Source: Halococcoides cellulosivorans
GTDB lineage: Archaea > Halobacteriota > Halobacteria > Halobacteriales > Haloarculaceae
Direction: 5' to 3'
Assembly: GCF_003058365.1 (NCBI RefSeq)
Contig: NZ_CP028858.1
Span: forward strand, 2,468,836-2,532,835
DNA: 64,000 nucleotides
Part shown: positions 1,911 through 12,726 of the stretch, piece by piece
Layout: each line of letters opens with the position of its first letter
How positions within the stretch are numbered: the first letter of the stretch is position 1
The notes under the pieces: model-generated
Databases searched by the model: none
Told to the model about the DNA's origin: nothing
The model's input: the letters and a program-made list of their open reading frames with translations, nothing else
Made by a program: the position numbers and the translations under genes

Positions 1911-2270
1911 CTAGATCAGGTTTGAATCGATATACTCACGAATGCGTTCACGAGCACAGTGCATGAATCGGAATTGGCGATAGAGGTTCGGATCGTTGTC
2001 ATTGCAGGATTGTGCGTAATCCCCCGTCGCTTTCCCGACCACGTCGTAGCTCGAAACGCCGTAATTCTGCCAGTGCGACTCGTCACCTACATGGGAGCAC
2101 CCATAGATGTGAGCGAGTTCGTGGCCTATAGTGGCGTTTCGATTGTAAAAGCTCACATATCCGTACGCCTTATCAGTTCCGGCTTTCGAGACTTTCGCCT
2201 TGCCCCAGCCACCCGAAAGACAGCACCTGTTGTCGATGACGACTACCGCGTCGTAAGTATTCGGCCGTGT
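1911..2270 (-). pseudogene. Zinc metalloprotease remnant, 5' end lost at the IS
   Basis: The open frame reads continuously from the IS border to a stop at 1911. It contains ATIGHELAHIYGCSH, a classic HExxH zinc-protease motif with a downstream His, as in metzincins. Going upstream the frame passes through the apparent IS end and stops at 2271, and no N-terminal signal or pro-region is present. A GTG at 2156 could start an 81-residue product but lies only nine codons before HELAH and would omit the core fold. The likely history is that an intact secreted or membrane protease lost its N-terminal part when the IS inserted or when flanking DNA was deleted. Confidence 0.7.
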
Positions 2271-2294
2271 TTAGACGCTAGTAAGAGCGTCTAA
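2271..2294. repeat. Subterminal hairpin inside the left IS end
   Basis: TTAGACGCT and its exact complement AGCGTCTAA are separated by six bases. The first arm overlaps the terminal inverted repeat. The hairpin lies just before the transposase start and could bind transposase or block readthrough transcription into the gene. Confidence 0.7.
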
Positions 2295-2313
2295 TTGTCG
2301 AAGATACTAGGAA

Positions 2314-3168
2314 GTGAAGCGGGAAACGGAGTTTGTGCCTACGAAACTCGCCCGCTTCACTGGTCGCATCGTTTCGCTCGCTCAAAAAGCCGTCGTCGGT
2401 GAGCCAGATCCAGCGTACCAGGCCGGTGACGGAGGGTACGCAGACTGGGTAATCGTGGCAATTCACGGTCTCAGAGAATATCTCGATCACCCGTACCGGC
2501 GGCTGCTGGACGTGCTCCACGAGATGCCTGGAATCGTTTCGAAGCTCGACCTAGCGGTAACTGAACTTCCCGATTTTACCACCGTTTGTACGCGCAAGCA
2601 AGACCTCGAAATGCGAATCTGGCGCGTCCTTTTGCGGTTATCGGCGGAACTGCACGACATCGGCGACGTTCAGGCGATCGACGCAACCGGCATGGATCGG
2701 ATCGCTGCCAGCCAACACTACGCAAAACGGACGAACTACACGTTCCAGGCGGTGAAAGTGACCACGTTGATCGACTGCGATACAAATGCGATTCTCGACA
2801 TACATTGCTCGATGAAACAACCGCACGACTCCAAGATCGGCTGGCAAATGGTGAAGCGGAACCTCGACAAACTGAGTGTTCTCACCGCCGACAAAGGATA
2901 CGACTGGTGGCTCCTTCGCCAAAGACTGCGTGCAGAAGGCGTCAAACCAGTGATTCGCCACCGCGAATTCGGCTGGTACGGCGTCGCGAACAATATCTTG
3001 CAAGATGATACGATCTACCATCAACGCTCGAACGTCGAGTCGACGTTTTTCGCACTCCGGCGCAAATACGGCGAGATCGTTCGCGCCCGAACCTGGTTCG
3101 GTCAGTTCCGCGAACTCGTCCTGAAATGCGCTGTCAGAAACATTGAATTGAGCGTGAGCCGCTCATGA
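2314..3168 (+). CDS. IS5-family transposase, ISH1 group
   Basis: The 284-residue DDE transposase has a GTG start. The catalytic acids appear as D123 in AIDATGMD, D193 in TADKGYDW and E242 in RSNVESTFFALRRKYG, which is the IS5-type spacing. The C-terminal region (VRARTWFGQFRELVLKCAVRN) is typical of the group. The reading frame is uninterrupted and the element has both ends, so it may be active. It stands alone between its inverted repeats. Confidence 0.92.
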   Translation: MKRETEFVPTKLARFTGRIVSLAQKAVVGEPDPAYQAGDGGYADWVIVAIHGLREYLDHPYRRLLDVLHEMPGIVSKLDLAVTELPDFTTVCTRKQDLEMRIWRVLLRLSAELHDIGDVQAIDATGMDRIAASQHYAKRTNYTFQAVKVTTLIDCDTNAILDIHCSMKQPHDSKIGWQMVKRNLDKLSVLTADKGYDWWLLRQRLRAEGVKPVIRHREFGWYGVANNILQDDTIYHQRSNVESTFFALRRKYGEIVRARTWFGQFRELVLKCAVRNIELSVSRS

Positions 3169-3249
3169 CCGTAATATTAGGCGTCTAAACAAGGCCAAGA
3201 TATAGTAATATCGGACAGTTTAAAGAGCACTCCAGGATGTGGTTGTGGT

Positions 3250-3971: not shown

Positions 3972-5969
3972 TCAGCTGTGGGAGGTAGTCTGCTCGTCGA
4001 TGAAACTAATGAGTTCGTCGATATTGTCGTTTCGAAAGAATTCAGTGAGTTGTAACGCTGTAGGATCGCGTGGAAACACTGTTCCTCGGCCATACCTCTC
4101 AAATGAGTCTTCAGTTACCTGCCGGTACGTCTTACTCGTTACATACCCGAGAACGTGGTCGAACCGATCGCCAAATCTGTTAAGATACTCAGTGAGCCGG
4201 TTGGTGACGAGTTTTATTTGGTCCGTATCCTCTTTTGCAAGTACGTAATCGTATTCAGTAACCGGTTGCTGACGCTCACATTCTTCAGGAACTGGACCGT
4301 ACATGCCTGAAATAGTCACCTTATGGATATTCGATGTGCGGTGACTGAGTTTGTCGAACAATACAGAATGGGTACGCGACTCCGAGTAGGGCTTTTTCTG
4401 GCTACAGGGAATGACAAGCAGAATCTCTCTATCGGACGGTGGAGTATACGATTGAGAAAGTACGTTGAAGTCACCCGGGGAGTATTTGAGAGAAATCCGC
4501 TGCGTATCGAACGATTCATCCGCCCCTGCACCCCATTCTGAGAGCTTCATCTGATCGCTATTGAGGTTTGAGCCCGGTAACAAATCGTAGGCTCCCCGGG
4601 ATTCGAGATCTTTGCGGAGCCGCTTATCGCGAACCTGGGCATTCTTGAGGCCTCGCTTGATGTCGTCATGTTCTCTTGCGAAATCGATTACGTGTTCGAG
4701 GAGCTTTCCCTCGTCTATTTTTTTCCGCACTTCTCGAAGTTCTCGGTTGTATACCTCGAAATTGTGGCGAGCCAGTAGTGCGTAGTAATCGCTCTTGATT
4801 GGTTTCCCGTTTTCTTTTCGTTCCATTGTCGCTGTTCTCGACATGTCACTATTGAGTAGGTTAACCATCTCCTCGTATCCGACGGATTCCTCAGTACAGA
4901 GCGTACAGTTCGGAAGGTCACACGGGAAGGCTCCGTCCGGATCGAGGTGGTCGTCAAGCTCATCGAGTTCGTGGTGGACCCAGGTATCTGGGTGGAGATA
5001 TTTTTTGTACCGGGCCGTTTGCATATGTGTCGAGCAATCGAAAGAATCGACACCGAGGAGAGAAAGCAATCCGACCTGTTTGCCACCGACACCAAAGACG
5101 TGTATTCCGATTTCGTCAGCGCGGCTCTCCGGGATCGCGTCTTTTGCGCCCTGAACGATATCGACGAGAGTACGGACACTGTCTCTGAGTGGGACAAGCG
5201 ATCCTATAGCGAATCCCTCGAACGAGGTGTCGGCGTCGACGTCCTCGACACGTTCGATGAAATTTCCGACGTACCAGCTCACCGTCTCGTAGTCATGACC
5301 GTGGAGGGCGACGTAGACACCCGGCTCCTCCTCATCTTTCTTTTGTTGCCGAAGCCGTTTAGCTGCGCGTTTGTTGACCTCAAAGCGTTCCTCGAGGAGG
5401 CCCGGGTCGTCAAGGATCTGAAGACATTCGACAGCGCTGTCGATACTGCGATTCATTCGCTCGACCTTTTCTTCTTCTTTCAGCCTTGGAGGGATTGGGT
5501 AATCGAGAGTTGCCACGATGTCCGCCCCAAAGTCCAACTGAAGCCCGAGGATACTCTTCGGATCAGTGTAGAGCCCCCACTCGTTCGGGACGCCACCCTC
5601 TTCAGGAGCATCGCCGAACGTATTCGAGTTCATCAGTTTGAATCCGCCAGAGTCAATGAACACCGGGGCATCTAAGTCATCAAAACGCTCGTGAAATGTC
5701 TGTGTCCGCCAGAAATCGTTGAGATTGCCCGGCGATACACCGTAGTCAGTAAAACTCATCGCCTGGAACATGATGCCCTGGAGATGGTCCTTATCGATGA
5801 GTTTGTCCCGCATTCGCCGCCAGACGCCGCCCGATTCCACCGTGGTCCCACCGATAATGTTGACGACCGGAAAGAGCGCCGGCGTTTCGACAGGGCCATT
5901 GGGCACTTCGATCTCCCCAATACGCCCATACCCGTCTTCATCGGGATTCTTCACACGAAACGACGCCAT
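3972..5969 (-). CDS. TGT-family transglycosylase with ArcS-like C-terminal domain
   Basis: A 665-residue protein. The N-terminal TIM barrel has the tRNA-guanine transglycosylase signatures: DSGGF at 106-110 (acid/base Asp), the predicted nucleophile D311 in VDSFDCSTHMQ, and a zinc site at C350, C355, C358 and H402. The C-terminal part carries PCSQKKPYSESRTH at 521-534, which exactly fits the archaeosine synthase ArcS motif PCx3KPYx2Sx2H. Known families do these jobs separately: TGT swaps guanine for preQ0, and ArcS converts preQ0 to archaeosine. I infer one protein that could both insert and convert a 7-deazaguanine. Its position in an accessory island suggests DNA rather than housekeeping tRNA as substrate. 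No queuosine-type biosynthesis genes are visible nearby. Confidence 0.85.
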   Translation of the reverse strand: MASFRVKNPDEDGYGRIGEIEVPNGPVETPALFPVVNIIGGTTVESGGVWRRMRDKLIDKDHLQGIMFQAMSFTDYGVSPGNLNDFWRTQTFHERFDDLDAPVFIDSGGFKLMNSNTFGDAPEEGGVPNEWGLYTDPKSILGLQLDFGADIVATLDYPIPPRLKEEEKVERMNRSIDSAVECLQILDDPGLLEERFEVNKRAAKRLRQQKKDEEEPGVYVALHGHDYETVSWYVGNFIERVEDVDADTSFEGFAIGSLVPLRDSVRTLVDIVQGAKDAIPESRADEIGIHVFGVGGKQVGLLSLLGVDSFDCSTHMQTARYKKYLHPDTWVHHELDELDDHLDPDGAFPCDLPNCTLCTEESVGYEEMVNLLNSDMSRTATMERKENGKPIKSDYYALLARHNFEVYNRELREVRKKIDEGKLLEHVIDFAREHDDIKRGLKNAQVRDKRLRKDLESRGAYDLLPGSNLNSDQMKLSEWGAGADESFDTQRISLKYSPGDFNVLSQSYTPPSDREILLVIPCSQKKPYSESRTHSVLFDKLSHRTSNIHKVTISGMYGPVPEECERQQPVTEYDYVLAKEDTDQIKLVTNRLTEYLNRFGDRFDHVLGYVTSKTYRQVTEDSFERYGRGTVFPRDPTALQLTEFFRNDNIDELISFIDEQTTSHS

Positions 5970-7037: not shown

Positions 7038-8022
7038 ATGCCCCAGGATTGGCTTCGCAGTATTGCTCCGATATTTGGTGGAGGGACGCAGTATGTCGAA
7101 ACGTTAGATTCGATTCTCGAGTTCGTCGAAGCGCATCAGCCGACGACGAATGAACTGGTGATGTGGCATCGTGAAGCGTTTTCGAATGTCTCGAGTCGAG
7201 AATCGATCATGCGGCGGCTGCGCTACTTAGAGCAGGTCGGGTTTCTTCGTCGAGAAAACGACCACTGGGACCTTGAGGAGGCTGGACGAGACTACGCCTA
7301 GAAAGGCGATATGACGAGGCTGCTCCGGATCATGTGTAATCGAAACGTCGGACTCCGAAGTCTTCTGTATGCGCTGGTGTCTGGCCCGATGACGATCACC
7401 GAAGTGAGTGAGCAGCAACTCGATACACATCCCGAATTGGGATGGAGTCCTGGGGAGACAGACATGGCGAACCAGCGGGTGAACTGGCTCCAGAGTATGG
7501 GCTTCGTTGAGAAGAACGGGAACAGCTGTGAACTGACGGCCGACGGGCGGAGATTCGTCGAGAGTGCGGTCGAGGAGTGGGCTGACTCAGACTGGACACC
7601 GTCGACGAGTGATCCCGAGTTGCGTGCAGGGACGTACGACACGACTGTCCACGCTCGTTCGATTGATCCAGAGTTCCGCGCAACGGTGCTGTCCCGTCAT
7701 GACCGTAGATGCCCAGTGTCTGGGGTGGACCATCATGGCCTGCTGGACGTTGCACATGTCACCGTGGAGCGACTATCCGAAACACCGGGTCGACCTCTCA
7801 AACGTACTGGCACTCAGCAAGACCCACCACGCGGCCTTCGACCGGGGGCTGTTCACCATTGATCGAGACTACCGGCTGCGGGTGAACCCCGAATTCGAGA
7901 CGAGGAGTGAGCTGTTGCAACGGACGATCACCGACCGGGACGGAGAGCGTATCTCGATCCCGGATGAGAGTCTGGAACCACAGTACGTCTCGCAGCACAA
8001 TGCGTCGCTCGAATGGGTGTGA
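7038..8022 (+). pseudogene. HNH endonuclease with tandem winged-helix N-terminus, broken
   Basis: Three segments add up to one nuclease gene. Frame 7038-7301 encodes a winged-helix domain ending at a TAG. The same frame resumes 9 bases later with MTRLLRIMCNRNVGL and a second winged helix, then RRCPVSGVDHHGLLDVAH, the first half of an HNH fold. Near 7760 the reading must shift by one base to continue as PWSDYPKHRVDLSNVLALS followed by KTHHAAFDRG, the second half. So there is one in-frame stop and one frameshift. A related tail at 11075-11134 suggests that even the stop at 8022 is premature. The architecture resembles HNH restriction-type nucleases of haloarchaea. As sequenced it should be inactive. 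Confidence 0.8.
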
Positions 8023-8171: not shown

Positions 8172-9419
8172 TCAGTCCGAGTACGCCGAAAGCGTCATCT
8201 GTCCGGGTTTCGGACTCGTCTCTCGGTGAACTGTGGCGCTGTCACGGGCGCTCCCATCCTGTGGCGAGTCATCGCGTTCCGGTTCCCAAGGAACACTCTC
8301 TCCCCACGGGTTAGCGCGACGGGCGATGTTCGCCGCCGCGTTAATATCCGCTTGGAACTCCGATACGTGGCAGTCGTCGTGCGGACACACAAACTCCGCT
8401 TGTTCATCCCGCCGACCGAGACGACCGCAGGCGTGGCAGGTCTGCGAGGTGTACGCCGCGTTGACGTACTCGACACGAATACCTGCCTCGGTCGCTTTGT
8501 CTTCGATTCGGCCCTGTAGCCGGGCGAATGCCCATGCGTGAAGGCGGCGGTTCATGAACTTACCGTAGTCCAACTGCTCGCGGATGTACGACAGGTCTTC
8601 CAACACGATGACGGGGTTCTCGAAGGATTCGGCGTATTCGACGGCCCGCCGAGACGCCTTCTCGACGATATCCGTCAGTGCGCTCTGGTAGTGGACGAAT
8701 CGTTCGTCCACGCGCCACTCGGCGGCGTCCCTCGACTGTAGCCGCCGAAGCGTGGTGGACATCTCTTTGCGGAGGTGTCGCGCTCGACTGCCACTGACGA
8801 GCATCGGCTTCCGTGGAACGTCGCGTTTGAGGGCACAGCCCGTAATCAACGCGCTCTCGCCGACGTCGAAGCCGATGTACGTCGGATCGTCCGACTCGGT
8901 CGGTTCGTCGACCGAGTATTCGACGGTCACGTGTAACTCCCACGATGTACGGTGTCGCTGTAGCCGCAACTCGCCCGCCGTCGCGTCCCCATCGAGTAGG
9001 TCGAACCAGAGCGATTCTTGCTCCGAGTTGATACAGAGCGGAATCCAGAAGTTCGTCCCGCGTCCGGGCATCGGAACCTGCCAGACGAAGCCGTGGTCGC
9101 GCTCCTCCGAGTAGTCGAATTTCGCGGCACGGTTGACGAGTCGAGCCGGATGCTCGTCGTCTAACTCCTCGGCGTTGTACGTCGAGCGGAGTTTCGGGAC
9201 GTAGGACTTGAGCGCGTCTTTGGCCTGATACGGCAGGTCGTAGGGCGTCACGACATCGTTGACGGCAGACATTGTGTCTGCCCTGTTGCCGAAAGCGTCG
9301 TGGAGTGCTTCACGGTAGGTGTCCAAGAGCCGCTGAAGGCGTTGCTCTTTGCCCGTGGTGGGCGTGGCGAGCGTGGCCTGTAGCGTCTTCGTCACCGTCT
9401 CGGACACACCCGTAGACAT
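8172..9419 (-). CDS. tnpB: TnpB RNA-guided DNA endonuclease
   Basis: A full-length 415-residue TnpB. The RuvC triad is visible as D185 in GFDVGES, E274 in VLEDLSYI and D358 in FQADINAAANIA. The zinc finger has cysteines at 328, 331, 345 and 350. TnpB cuts DNA matching its guide RNA, made from the 3' end of its own transcript. Here that RNA would run into the hairpins at 8118-8153. No TnpA accompanies it, so spread would depend on a transposase elsewhere. The intact triad suggests an active nuclease. Confidence 0.9.
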   Translation of the reverse strand: MSTGVSETVTKTLQATLATPTTGKEQRLQRLLDTYREALHDAFGNRADTMSAVNDVVTPYDLPYQAKDALKSYVPKLRSTYNAEELDDEHPARLVNRAAKFDYSEERDHGFVWQVPMPGRGTNFWIPLCINSEQESLWFDLLDGDATAGELRLQRHRTSWELHVTVEYSVDEPTESDDPTYIGFDVGESALITGCALKRDVPRKPMLVSGSRARHLRKEMSTTLRRLQSRDAAEWRVDERFVHYQSALTDIVEKASRRAVEYAESFENPVIVLEDLSYIREQLDYGKFMNRRLHAWAFARLQGRIEDKATEAGIRVEYVNAAYTSQTCHACGRLGRRDEQAEFVCPHDDCHVSEFQADINAAANIARRANPWGESVPWEPERDDSPQDGSARDSATVHRETSPKPGQMTLSAYSD

Positions 9420-9818: not shown

Positions 9819-10166
9819 TCAGAACTCCCCGAGACTGCGGTTTTTGGTCGGAGCTACCGCTTTCCCGACCTGGATGAGTTCGAAGTCCGAAAGCTCTCCA
9901 TCAACGCGTTCTCCAAGCAATTCCCGGACCTCATCGTCCAGTGATGAGACCTCGATCACCGTTATCGGTCGCTGGGTCAGTGCGTAACTGCTGGCCAATC
10001 CTGTAGGGCGAACAACGAGGACGGACTCAGCTGGCGTACGCTCTAGTGCGAGTTCCGCGTCGCGGTGGGTGTGAAGGATGGCATTGATCTCTTCGACTGG
10101 GAACAGGACGGACGCATCTCCGTGGTCTACGTACCCACCTCCATCAGTGAAATGCCCTACGCTCAT
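9819..10166 (-). CDS. Hypothetical acidic protein
   Basis: A 115-residue acidic protein starting at ATG 10166 (MSVGHFTDGGG). The C-terminal half (EVSSLDDEVRELLGERVDG) has typical haloarchaeal composition. No motif or family was recognised. It is divergent from the CBS-HEPN-like gene, with an AT-rich stretch of about 80 bases between the two starts that probably holds both promoters. It could be the cognate regulator or antitoxin of that gene. This rests on position only. Confidence 0.6.
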   Translation of the reverse strand: MSVGHFTDGGGYVDHGDASVLFPVEEINAILHTHRDAELALERTPAESVLVVRPTGLASSYALTQRPITVIEVSSLDDEVRELLGERVDGELSDFELIQVGKAVAPTKNRSLGEF

Positions 10167-10212
10167 CAATACGATATTAATAATTACTATTACTTATTCC
10201 TTGCGGCGGCCA

Positions 10213-10247
10213 AACGATTATACTCGGAGCGACCGCTATTCGAGGCG
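10213..10247 (+). promoter_or_regulatory. TATA-like element giving a leaderless start
   Basis: TTATA at 10218-10222 lies 26-30 bases before the ATG at 10248. This is the archaeal TATA distance, so transcription would begin at or next to the start codon. Leaderless mRNAs are common in haloarchaea, and this supports 10248 over upstream GTG or ATG choices that run into the divergent gene. Confidence 0.5.
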
Positions 10248-11036
10248 ATGGTTCAGGATCGGTACGTCTGTACAGCAGACGACCTCGCGACTCAAACAAT
10301 CGCCACAAAAGACCCTGAAGCGACCGTTTCCGAGGCAAGTGAGTGGCTCGAAGCTGAAGGATTCGACGTTGCACCAGTGAGTAGCGGGGAGGACATTCGG
10401 GGATATGTCGTCCTGGAGGAGCTACAGGATGCGCCGTCCACCGACCACATTGTGGATCATACAAAGCCGATAACGATCGGTGAGATTGTCTCTGCTGACG
10501 CTACGTTCGAAGAAGTACTATTAGCGCTCTACGAGGACCCCTTCTATTTCCTCGGTGGTCAAAATCGGTTGACAGGAATTCTGACACGAGCGGATCTGAA
10601 CACGTCTCCTGCGAGGATGCACCTGTTCGATCGAATCACGCTACTCGAGGATCAGTTCCGTAAACTCGTCCTCGACGTAGCGCCCGACTGGAAAGAGCAG
10701 GTCGCACTCAATACGAACGTGGTTGAAGACATCGAAGAGCGGCACGCTGAGGCTCGCCGGTCGAATATCGAACTCGACGAAATCCACTACGCCCAGTTTT
10801 CGACACTTGCAACGATCGTCAGCGACATCGAAGCGTGTTGGAAAGCCTCTGGATTTTCGAGCGATCATCGGGCGTCAAGCCAGCTTGATGACCTGACCGA
10901 TCTGCGAAATGCGGTTGCACATTCCCATCAGGTCGTCCAGAACACTGAAGGTGGATTCGGAGAGGGACGAACGATTGGAAATGTTGAACAAATATATACG
11001 ACTGTTGAAGGTTGTCTTGAAAGTCTCTCGTCATGA
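10248..11036 (+). CDS. CBS-domain protein with HEPN-like C-terminal domain
   Basis: A 262-residue protein from ATG 10248 (MVQDRYVCTADD). Residues 10-62 and 70-118 look like a CBS pair, which binds adenine nucleotides in known families; the second contains LGGQNRLTGILTRADL. Residues 125-260 are helical and include RNAVAH at 220-225, an exact RNxxxH motif of HEPN ribonucleases. The combined reading is a nucleotide-sensing module joined to a possible RNase. It is followed after about 180 bases by a CARF-like and PIN pair on the same strand, so the three may form one signalling-nuclease cluster. An alternative is a non-catalytic HEPN-like helical domain. Confidence 0.6.
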   Translation: MVQDRYVCTADDLATQTIATKDPEATVSEASEWLEAEGFDVAPVSSGEDIRGYVVLEELQDAPSTDHIVDHTKPITIGEIVSADATFEEVLLALYEDPFYFLGGQNRLTGILTRADLNTSPARMHLFDRITLLEDQFRKLVLDVAPDWKEQVALNTNVVEDIEERHAEARRSNIELDEIHYAQFSTLATIVSDIEACWKASGFSSDHRASSQLDDLTDLRNAVAHSHQVVQNTEGGFGEGRTIGNVEQIYTTVEGCLESLSS

Positions 11037-11134: not shown

Positions 11135-11218
11135 TGGTGAGCTTTAGGCCCCGGATCCGAAGACGAGCCCAGCGTGATTGCAGGAACACTATTGTTACTG
11201 CCATATGTCGAGTCTACA

Positions 11219-11689
11219 ATGGCACGCATCTGGGTTACCAACGGGACGCCGACGATGCCTGGCCTTTTGAATCCACTCGCTGCTGCGTGTGACAGCGGGT
11301 ATGTCCCGGATGAAGCACGAATTCTGTCGAATCCTGGTGTTGCCGATTCGGTCGCGGACGCGAGCGAGATGTTTGAGACAATCATCGGGGCTCACGGCGG
11401 GGATGCGACTGTTTCGAAACACAGTCTCGAAACGGAGACGGATTTCCGAGAAATCATCGAGTTCTATCAGTCAGCGATTGAGGCGGCCCGTGAGAACGGA
11501 GATACGATCGCAGTCGACGTAACCCCCGGTCGGAAGTTCATGTCAGCTATTTCGTTCCAGGCTGGCTTCCGATTCGATGCCGACCATGTCTTCTACTTCT
11601 ATCGAAAAAGTGGAGCGTACTATGGCGACCTCTATGCGGAGATTCCACGAACTGCGACCGAACTCATCGATTTCACGGAGGTGATGTAA
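11219..11689 (+). CDS. CARF-like (Rossmann) ligand-sensing protein
   Basis: A 156-residue protein from ATG 11219. It begins with MARIWVTNGTPTMPG, a beta strand plus loop as in CARF Rossmann folds. At 100-108 it has DVTPGRKFM, the D-x-T-x-G-x-K-x-M motif shared by CARF and DUF1887-type proteins that bind cyclic oligoadenylates. It has no attached effector domain. Instead the next gene, a PIN nuclease, starts at its stop codon (TAATG), so the two are translationally coupled and probably form a complex. No cas genes are visible in the window. The ligand and its synthase are therefore unknown, and the CARF assignment rests on motif and fold pattern. Confidence 0.65.
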   Translation: MARIWVTNGTPTMPGLLNPLAAACDSGYVPDEARILSNPGVADSVADASEMFETIIGAHGGDATVSKHSLETETDFREIIEFYQSAIEAARENGDTIAVDVTPGRKFMSAISFQAGFRFDADHVFYFYRKSGAYYGDLYAEIPRTATELIDFTEVM

Positions 11690-12726
11690 TGCACGTCGAG
11701 CGCCGCCGATTGATGGTTCTCTTGAATGCACTGTACGATCACGGCGTGACCTCGATCCCCGTCGAACACCCGTGCGATGACATTGGAGAACTGCTGGTGG
11801 TCGAGTTAGAGGACAATGGACAGGCGACCGTTCGATTCACCCAGGGGTCGATGACCTATCAGGACAGTCGTGAGACGATCCCAGCGAAACACGGTGAGCC
11901 AGCCTACCTGGACCTACCGGACGCACAGACGTATACTCGAATGATGGTCGCCAGCGGGTACGTCGAGCCGAAGAACATCGATGAGGTGGTGGCGTTCCTC
12001 GATCGCCACGGATACCCGGACCTCGAAGCCGGGCACGATCCGGTCGTCGTCGGTCTTGACGCGAATATTTTGGCGTGGCGTCTCCCTGAAGTGCTCGGCT
12101 TTGACAGCGAGACAGGTGAAACAGATGCGAAGGGACGTCGGCCGACCAACGGCTACGCGTTGGCGACGGGCGTCGAAGAGGAACTCGACTGGCACTTTAA
12201 TCAGTACAATACCCACGAACTCACTTCGGCGTTCGGTTCGGAATTCGACCGCCTCGACGACCAGCCAGCCGGAGCGAACCGCGAAGGATTGCTCGGACTG
12301 TACGAGTACCGGCGGCTTCGGACCGATCGGACGGTTGACATCGTCGAGAGCGACACTGGTGACGAAGCGATCATCGACAGCTATCGCAAATTCAACGAAG
12401 AAAGTCAGAAACAGGCGATTCTGTTCAGCAACGATCACGGATTCGTCGAACGGAGTCTCGACACAGGTGTGCCAGCCCAGGTTGTCCAGTTCCCGATTGA
12501 CCTCCCCCAGACTGCGACGGGCTCGTGGACACAAGCAACGGAACTACTGTATTATCTCGCTGTGCTCTTCGGAGTTGTTGTTCTTCCGAAGGTGACCATC
12601 TACGGCGTGTGGAACGGGAAAAACGGCCGCCACTGGCAGTCCGAGCAACTCGATATCGATTGCCGAAGCCCAACGGTGGAAACACAACTCGAGCGCGATT
12701 TAACCATCCTCGACGCACGGACGTGA
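11689..12726 (+). CDS. PIN-domain nuclease partner of the CARF-like protein
   Basis: A 345-residue protein. The first 110 residues form an uncharacterised domain. A PIN-type nuclease follows: strand VVVGLDANIL with D124 and N126, acids E163-E165 in GVEEELDW, D230 in an alpha-helical stretch, and ILFSNDHGFVE with D249. These match the four-acid PIN active site, which cleaves RNA. The C-terminal 80 residues include a hydrophobic segment at about 278-297 (LLYYLAVLFGVVVLPKVTIY) that could touch the membrane. Its ATG overlaps the CARF-like stop by one base. I infer a nuclease switched on by the ligand of its partner. Confidence 0.7.
   Translation: MHVERRRLMVLLNALYDHGVTSIPVEHPCDDIGELLVVELEDNGQATVRFTQGSMTYQDSRETIPAKHGEPAYLDLPDAQTYTRMMVASGYVEPKNIDEVVAFLDRHGYPDLEAGHDPVVVGLDANILAWRLPEVLGFDSETGETDAKGRRPTNGYALATGVEEELDWHFNQYNTHELTSAFGSEFDRLDDQPAGANREGLLGLYEYRRLRTDRTVDIVESDTGDEAIIDSYRKFNEESQKQAILFSNDHGFVERSLDTGVPAQVVQFPIDLPQTATGSWTQATELLYYLAVLFGVVVLPKVTIYGVWNGKNGRHWQSEQLDIDCRSPTVETQLERDLTILDART

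Follow-up and report, generated by a model that had tools for sequence, protein, structure and literature searches.

We found that a gene in the analysed window (the whole stretch of 64,000 nucleotides, part of the 2.72-Mb single-contig genome of the haloarchaeon Halococcoides cellulosivorans) encodes one protein with two enzyme sites, a TGT catalytic barrel and an ArcS core. Each site is intact and conserved; the tRNA enzymes of the host are other proteins, and genetic linkage ties this one to an island of preQ0, helicase and nuclease genes. In a haloarchaeal, Dpd-like 7-deazaguanine restriction-modification island of BRIGADE type, this TGT-ArcS protein probably acts as the maturing DNA transglycosylase. 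We infer the DNA substrate, the reaction order, the final base and the self-marking role; because relatives of the gene almost always lie in antiviral gene clusters, marking of the cell's own DNA rather than of tRNA is most likely. The reading is based on co-occurrence with a GHKL ATPase, the island neighbours, the conserved motifs, the canonical TgtA and ArcS of all 38 genomes carrying the gene, and the precedent of Vibrio phage nt-1.

The TGT-ArcS protein (665 aa) is encoded on the minus strand at 3972..5969, with an ATG start and no internal stop. Its TGT catalytic barrel and zinc region (residues 13-435; 4665..5933, minus strand) was identified with Pfam PF01702 (E 3.1e-27, 96 bits against a cut-off of 26.3) and by an AlphaFold/Foldseek match to ArcTGT (1j2b/1iq8) and bacterial TGT. 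The ArcS core domain (DUF5591, residues 504-632; 4074..4460, minus strand) was identified with Pfam PF17884 (E 1.8e-20, 73.7 bits against a cut-off of 26) and by a phmmer match to 2q07 (AF0587). Within it, the ArcS motif PCSQKKPYSESRTH (residues 521-534; 4368..4409, minus strand) fits PCx3KPYx2Sx2H exactly. The AlphaFold model, built from 18 sequences with a mean pLDDT of 78.7, shows three parts (TGT barrel, helical region, C-terminal alpha/beta domain) and matches the structures of ArcTGT and bacterial TGT with E about 1e-17 (Foldseek). The original prediction that a TGT barrel and an ArcS motif share one protein is thus borne out by the intact reading frame, the two Pfam domains and the exact motif.

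The catalytic residues of the TGT domain could also be placed. DSGGF (residues 106-110; 5640..5654, minus strand) was read from the sequence and is invariant in the family alignment; it contains D106, the general acid/base position of TGTs. D311 (in GVDSFD; 5037..5039, minus strand) occupies the nucleophile position in the HMMER alignment to GVDLFDSASY of Pyrococcus ArcTGT (PDB 1iq8). The zinc ligands C350, C355 and C358 (4896..4922, minus strand) and H402 (4764-4766, minus strand) align with the FPCSCPVC and ALHNLWV segments of 1iq8 and fall in invariant columns of the family alignment, although the cysteine spacing is Cx4Cx2C, compared with CxCx2C in the 1iq8 alignment. DSGGF, the nucleophile and the CCCH zinc site had been proposed at the outset, and the alignment and the conservation among relatives agree with all three.

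We searched 392 genomes of the class with a profile and obtained 43 matches; five of them (G130, G027, G142, G295, G371) were a shorter TGT only and were left out. The full TGT-ArcS protein was therefore found in 38 of the 392 haloarchaeal genomes, a patchy distribution of about 10%. When the window protein is counted in, D[ST]GG and GxDxxD are present in all 39 fused proteins and the complete ArcS motif in 36, with variation in the other three. Because these motifs are kept across the family, the catalytic residues are no chance match. The differences between the fused gene and its nearest relative at the three codon positions were 0.196, 0.114 and 0.594, and therefore the gene is under purifying selection. 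Judged from its sequences, TGT-ArcS is a real conserved family of two-site enzymes.

It may nevertheless be that only one of the sites is active. Either the TGT site inserts the base and the ArcS core serves for DNA binding or structure, or a second TGT inserts it and the fused protein only matures it. Not all domains of the DUF328/DUF6884 type are known as catalytic, the island does contain a second TGT, and the ArcS motif varies in the three proteins mentioned. However, the D106 and D311 positions in 39/39 proteins and the ArcS motif in 36/39 indicate that both sites are under selection, and we consider this alternative, which overlaps with DNA marking, possible but clearly the weaker choice.

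Relatives were found in Haloplanus, Salinibaculum, Natronorubrum, Halorussus, Halorubrum, Natrinema and other genera in a scan of named genomes, and two of them, in Natrinema and Haladaptatus, are plasmid-borne. The Haladaptatus plasmid island (L010:15001-19700) encodes two TGT-ArcS proteins in opposite orientation with intact motifs in both, the second being a paralogue with 45% identity to the window protein. An anti-restriction role has been shown or proposed for DpdA of phages and archaeal viruses (PMC6884629, PMC8651126). This precedent and the two plasmid-borne relatives would suit a viral-type gene that protects mobile DNA rather than marking the host. But the viral contigs and phage records contained no close relative of the fused protein, only weak TGT similarity, and the relatives are linked to effector genes. 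Anti-restriction in the viral sense, which had been part of the original prediction, is accordingly less likely than self-marking, and we regard it as very improbable.

Three single clades appeared in a TGT-domain tree: the fused proteins, the small TGTs of the island, and TgtA. The fused clade was not placed with bacterial DpdA, and the fused protein was not among the matches listed for the DpdA equivalog (NF041059, cut-off 200 bits). Both results count against DNA marking, though the deep branches and those of bacterial and phage DpdA are long. It may also be supposed that archaeal TGTs ancestrally had a TGT plus C1 layout and that the fused protein has simply retained both sites, and the TgtA of the window genome has a degenerate-looking YCSAES..GPVP stretch that would fit. 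However, an HMM of the ArcS-core domain of the fused protein detected ArcS and did not detect TgtA.

We then consider the tRNA pathway of the host. The fused protein scored 106.6 bits against TIGR00432 (ArcTGT, the tRNA G15 transglycosylase; cut-off 350) and 112 bits against NF040592 (ArcS; cut-off 440), far below both equivalog cut-offs, whereas the host's own TgtA and ArcS scored 573 and 706 bits with the same models, and its RaSEA scored 411 bits against a cut-off of 212. The original prediction would have been overturned by a host lacking tgtA or arcS, and this host has both. Canonical TgtA and ArcS were above the curated cut-offs in 38/38 genomes carrying the fused gene; the gene therefore does not stand in for a missing tRNA enzyme, and we rejected it as the tRNA enzyme of the host. 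Among the 38 genomes, the canonical TgtA of this host (chromosome 978100-979395) and its ArcS are the lowest-scoring, and the branch of this TgtA is unusually long.

An accessory enzyme that modifies an additional tRNA position, another RNA or an invader's RNA is a different matter. It would be in keeping with the tRNA function of TGT and ArcS, with the known existence of TGT paralogues that have other tRNA targets, and with the nearest structures, which are those of ArcTGT with tRNA. All 21 fused members scanned with Pfam contain TGT and DUF5591 without any other Pfam domain, and the tRNA-binding domains TGT_C2 and PUA were found in none of them. This absence is a weak discriminator against TgtA, because a haloarchaeal TgtA (P0011) also lacks Pfam matches for TGT_C2 and PUA; ArcS (P0010) has both. 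Further points against such an RNA enzyme, which we consider improbable, are that the host has the full tRNA pathway, that the distribution is patchy, and that the fused gene is almost always linked to an island carrying queDEC together with DpdJ-like helicase and PLD nuclease genes.

To describe this island, we took about 40 kb around 35 fused genes, predicted ORFs there by a simple filter for acidic composition, and grouped the encoded proteins into clusters. The fused gene was adjoined by a recurrent operon of DUF6884 (about 155 aa), TGT (about 413 aa) and GHKL ATPase (about 518 aa) genes. The full-length GHKL ATPase was found in 42 of the 392 genomes, that is, in 37 of the 38 with the fused gene and in 5 of the 354 others (Fisher's test, p = 2.8e-45). 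The test counts related genomes as independent, so this p-value overstates the strength of the association, and physical linkage is the stronger evidence: 30 of the 37 pairs of fused gene and ATPase lie within 6 kb and 33 within 20 kb. The neighbourhoods also repeatedly contain QueD/QueE/QueC (Pfam PTPS, radical SAM, QueC), a PLD nuclease, several proteins of unknown kind and two helicases. One helicase, of about 1576 aa, has an MZB domain and is of YprA type; the other has DpdJ as its best PADLOC match (170 bits, E 1.5e-50). Gene content varies, and not each gene is found in each island within the stretch fetched. A PLD-type cluster (C19) lies beside the helicase in seven relatives; in the window genome, neither of the two neighbourhoods yielded one.

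The original prediction held that the protein could install and mature a 7-deazaguanine, possibly in DNA as a self mark. The preQ0 genes, DpdJ-like helicase, PLD nuclease and YprA-type helicase in the islands of relatives favour this suggestion. Even so, co-location in a defence island can reflect shared mobility and not shared function.

Two other genes of the operon have distant links to known DNA-modification proteins. The small island TGT matched DpdA with 26 bits (NCBIfam), and its G032 relative with 30 bits (PADLOC). The DUF6884 HMM gave a match (E 3e-9) to the N-terminal domain of a Nostoc protein annotated as DpdA, in which a DUF6884-like domain is fused to TGT. For the DUF6884 model (pLDDT 91.6), the closest relevant folds in Foldseek were AF0587 and E. 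coli YaaA/DUF328, with a probability of 1.00 each but E only about 1e-3 and TM about 0.55; the alignment behind this fold and profile includes two rows of only about a dozen residues. A comparison of DUF6884 with the ArcS core by hhalign gave a probability of 65%. These models suggest that the DUF6884 protein and the ArcS core are likely to be distantly related.

A 2025 preprint predicted BRIGADE as a 7-deazaguanine cluster with PLD nucleases and two kinds of YprA helicase, Dpd-like and ARMADA-like; its main text describes BRIGADE as found only in halophilic archaea and makes no mention of TGT, transglycosylase, ArcS or archaeosine (PMC12458937). As BRIGADE is described there, the island shares with it the occurrence in halophilic archaea and the 7-deazaguanine cluster and, apparently, the DpdJ-like and YprA/MZB helicases and the PLD nuclease. 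The operon has queD/E/C close by both in this genome and in many relatives, and both helicase types were found in many relatives by a domain search rather than a YprA tree. The island genes fit the definition in the preprint text, and the island therefore appears to be of an already predicted kind. The window genome differs in that it lacks the large MZB/ARMADA-like helicase, while BRIGADE is defined there with both helicases.

Bacterial Dpd (DpdA-K) likewise combines genes for preQ0 synthesis with a TGT homologue, a PLD nuclease and a DpdJ-like helicase, and the N-terminal DUF6884-like domain of Nostoc DpdA corresponds to the separate DUF6884 protein of the haloarchaeal operon. The haloarchaeal island differs by two TGTs and a GHKL ATPase, and by an ArcS core that replaces, or stands beside, a DpdC-type domain. 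With the tRNA enzymes ArcTGT (TgtA) and ArcS, the fused protein shares the TGT fold, the catalytic Asp pair, the zinc site and the ArcS-core motif in DUF5591, but here both motifs are in a single protein. In Vibrio phage nt-1, DpdA2 occurs with an ArcS core encoded on its own, and dPreQ0, dG+ and dADG are present in the phage DNA (PMC6884629). The phage thus pairs a DNA-modifying TGT homologue with an ArcS core as the haloarchaeal protein does, although in the phage the two are separate genes with very divergent sequences.

The mechanism may be explained as follows. PreQ0 would be supplied by QueD/E/C of the host or the island, and the TGT site (D106, D311, Zn) would swap guanine for preQ0 in DNA; the second TGT, encoded in the DUF6884-TGT-ATPase operon, and the GHKL ATPase possibly join in this exchange. 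The ArcS core would then attack the nitrile of the inserted preQ0. If host RaSEA takes part, the product would be deoxyarchaeosine; otherwise it would be a lysine or amide adduct. This mark would label self DNA, and the helicase and nuclease effectors (DpdJ-like and YprA-like helicases, PLD nuclease and, in some genomes, a PbeABCD-like cassette) would attack unmarked DNA.

Thermococcus ArcS transfers lysine to preQ0, does not require L-shaped tRNA and accepts preQ0 nucleotide, but its activity requires RaSEA in complex (PMC11298593). We found no RaSEA homologue in the neighbourhoods of the fused genes, which counts against DNA marking; the last step would therefore need host RaSEA or a different nucleophile. 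The base class predicted from TGT-ArcS is preQ0 matured at the nitrile. If the prediction is true, a self mark of this kind (deoxyarchaeosine, or deoxy-preQ0-lysine without RaSEA) has no earlier report from a cell's own genome in the literature cited here. In known 7-deazaguanine DNA systems, insertion and maturation are carried out by separate proteins. TGT-ArcS is thus the first enzyme to test in the predicted haloarchaeal restriction-modification island.

The layout of the window genome is exceptional. The fused gene stands alone at 2.473 Mb, 179 kb from the operon, the largest separation among the 37 pairs. The intact DUF6884-TGT-ATPase operon and queDEC are at about 2.641-2.655 Mb of the same chromosome, and the DpdJ-like helicase is at about 2.664-2.668 Mb; it is the only one present, the large MZB/YprA-like (ARMADA-like) helicase being absent from this genome. 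An insertion sequence of 968 bp (2254..3217, plus strand) has a second copy, 95.2% identical over 968 bp, beside the DpdJ-like helicase at the distant locus, and it is plausible that recombination between such copies separated the fused gene from the operon. The lone position and the missing helicase count against DNA marking here. Together with the insertion sequence at both loci, they would fit a stranded remnant of an IS-driven rearrangement that no longer belongs to a working system in this genome, which is compatible with our explanation of the family. However, the reading frame is intact with all motifs, and the branch of the fused gene is not unusually long for this genome. Because the operon, queDEC, the DpdJ-like helicase and a Pbe-like cassette are on the same chromosome, the fused enzyme could act in trans. 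We therefore consider stranding rather unlikely, and the likely partners of the fused protein are the intact operon genes 179 kb away.

A frameshifted HNH gene near the fused gene (7311-8022) had been proposed as a lost restriction partner. We rejected this candidate, as none of the fused gene's neighbours in the window, the HNH gene included, recurs beside relatives; another HNH gene does lie in the neighbourhoods of some relatives. The gene is an HNH_2-type nuclease gene with an N-terminal winged-helix-like region, and it lies in two frames with a frameshift near 7.8 kb.

A PbeABCD-like cassette lies directly beside the DUF6884/TGT/ATPase operon (chromosome 2655605-2663595; L006:10606-18596), with a PbeA-like helicase of 535 bits and a PbeC-like protein of 752 bits. 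PbeABCD has been described as a partner of Dnd phosphorothioation, and many solitary cassettes have an unknown partner (PMC6459918). In the Dnd system DndC accompanies PbeABCD, but this genome has no DndC. A PbeC with at least 58% identity to that of this genome was found in 8 of the 392 haloarchaeal genomes. In seven of the eight, the window genome among them, the fused gene is present and DndC was not found (p = 3.5e-7, a value that treats related genomes as independent and uses an identity line drawn after the list was seen). In the eighth (G233) the fused gene is missing and DndC is present; nor was the fused gene in any of the eleven genomes with a more distant PbeC. Pairing of a PbeABCD-like cassette with a 7-deazaguanine mark would be new, but shared island location is also enough as an explanation. 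If they are paired, TGT-ArcS could partly answer what solitary PbeABCD pairs with when Dnd genes are missing. The wider proposal, that insertion of preQ0 into cellular archaeal DNA and its elaboration there are the work of one enzyme and that the mark can serve alternative effectors including a PbeABCD-like cassette, is tentative and somewhat doubtful.

Some other genes were observed during the analysis. On Haloarcula pHsi139 (L012:4569-11026), a third haloarchaeal DpdA-like TGT of 344 aa lies with QueE, QueD, EVE-domain and BREX-type ATPase genes, and this type is on eight haloarchaeal plasmids, pHsi139 included. An AT-rich archaeal MAG contig (L034:165-5775) has a large helicase ORF followed directly by a 386-aa TGT ORF and a DUF5591-like ORF with LTKPYSKSRTH, a pair that is a distant relative outside haloarchaea; genes resembling Cas7/Cas5, as judged by eye, come next. 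Beside another island (L066:11110-17110), genes for RAMP/Csm3-like, weakly Cmr3-like, RNase H-like and HNH proteins form a set that recurs in about seven genomes and that, we presume, may be an HRAMP-type system. In the window itself, a TnpB-like protein of 415 aa with a Cas12f1-like TNB domain is encoded at 8172-9419 (minus strand). A CARF protein (PADLOC CARF_m1, 216 bits) followed by a CARF/PIN-type effector is encoded at 11174-12726; the pair is of a small CRISPR-ancillary type, with a weakly HEPN-like gene ahead of it at 10065-11036.
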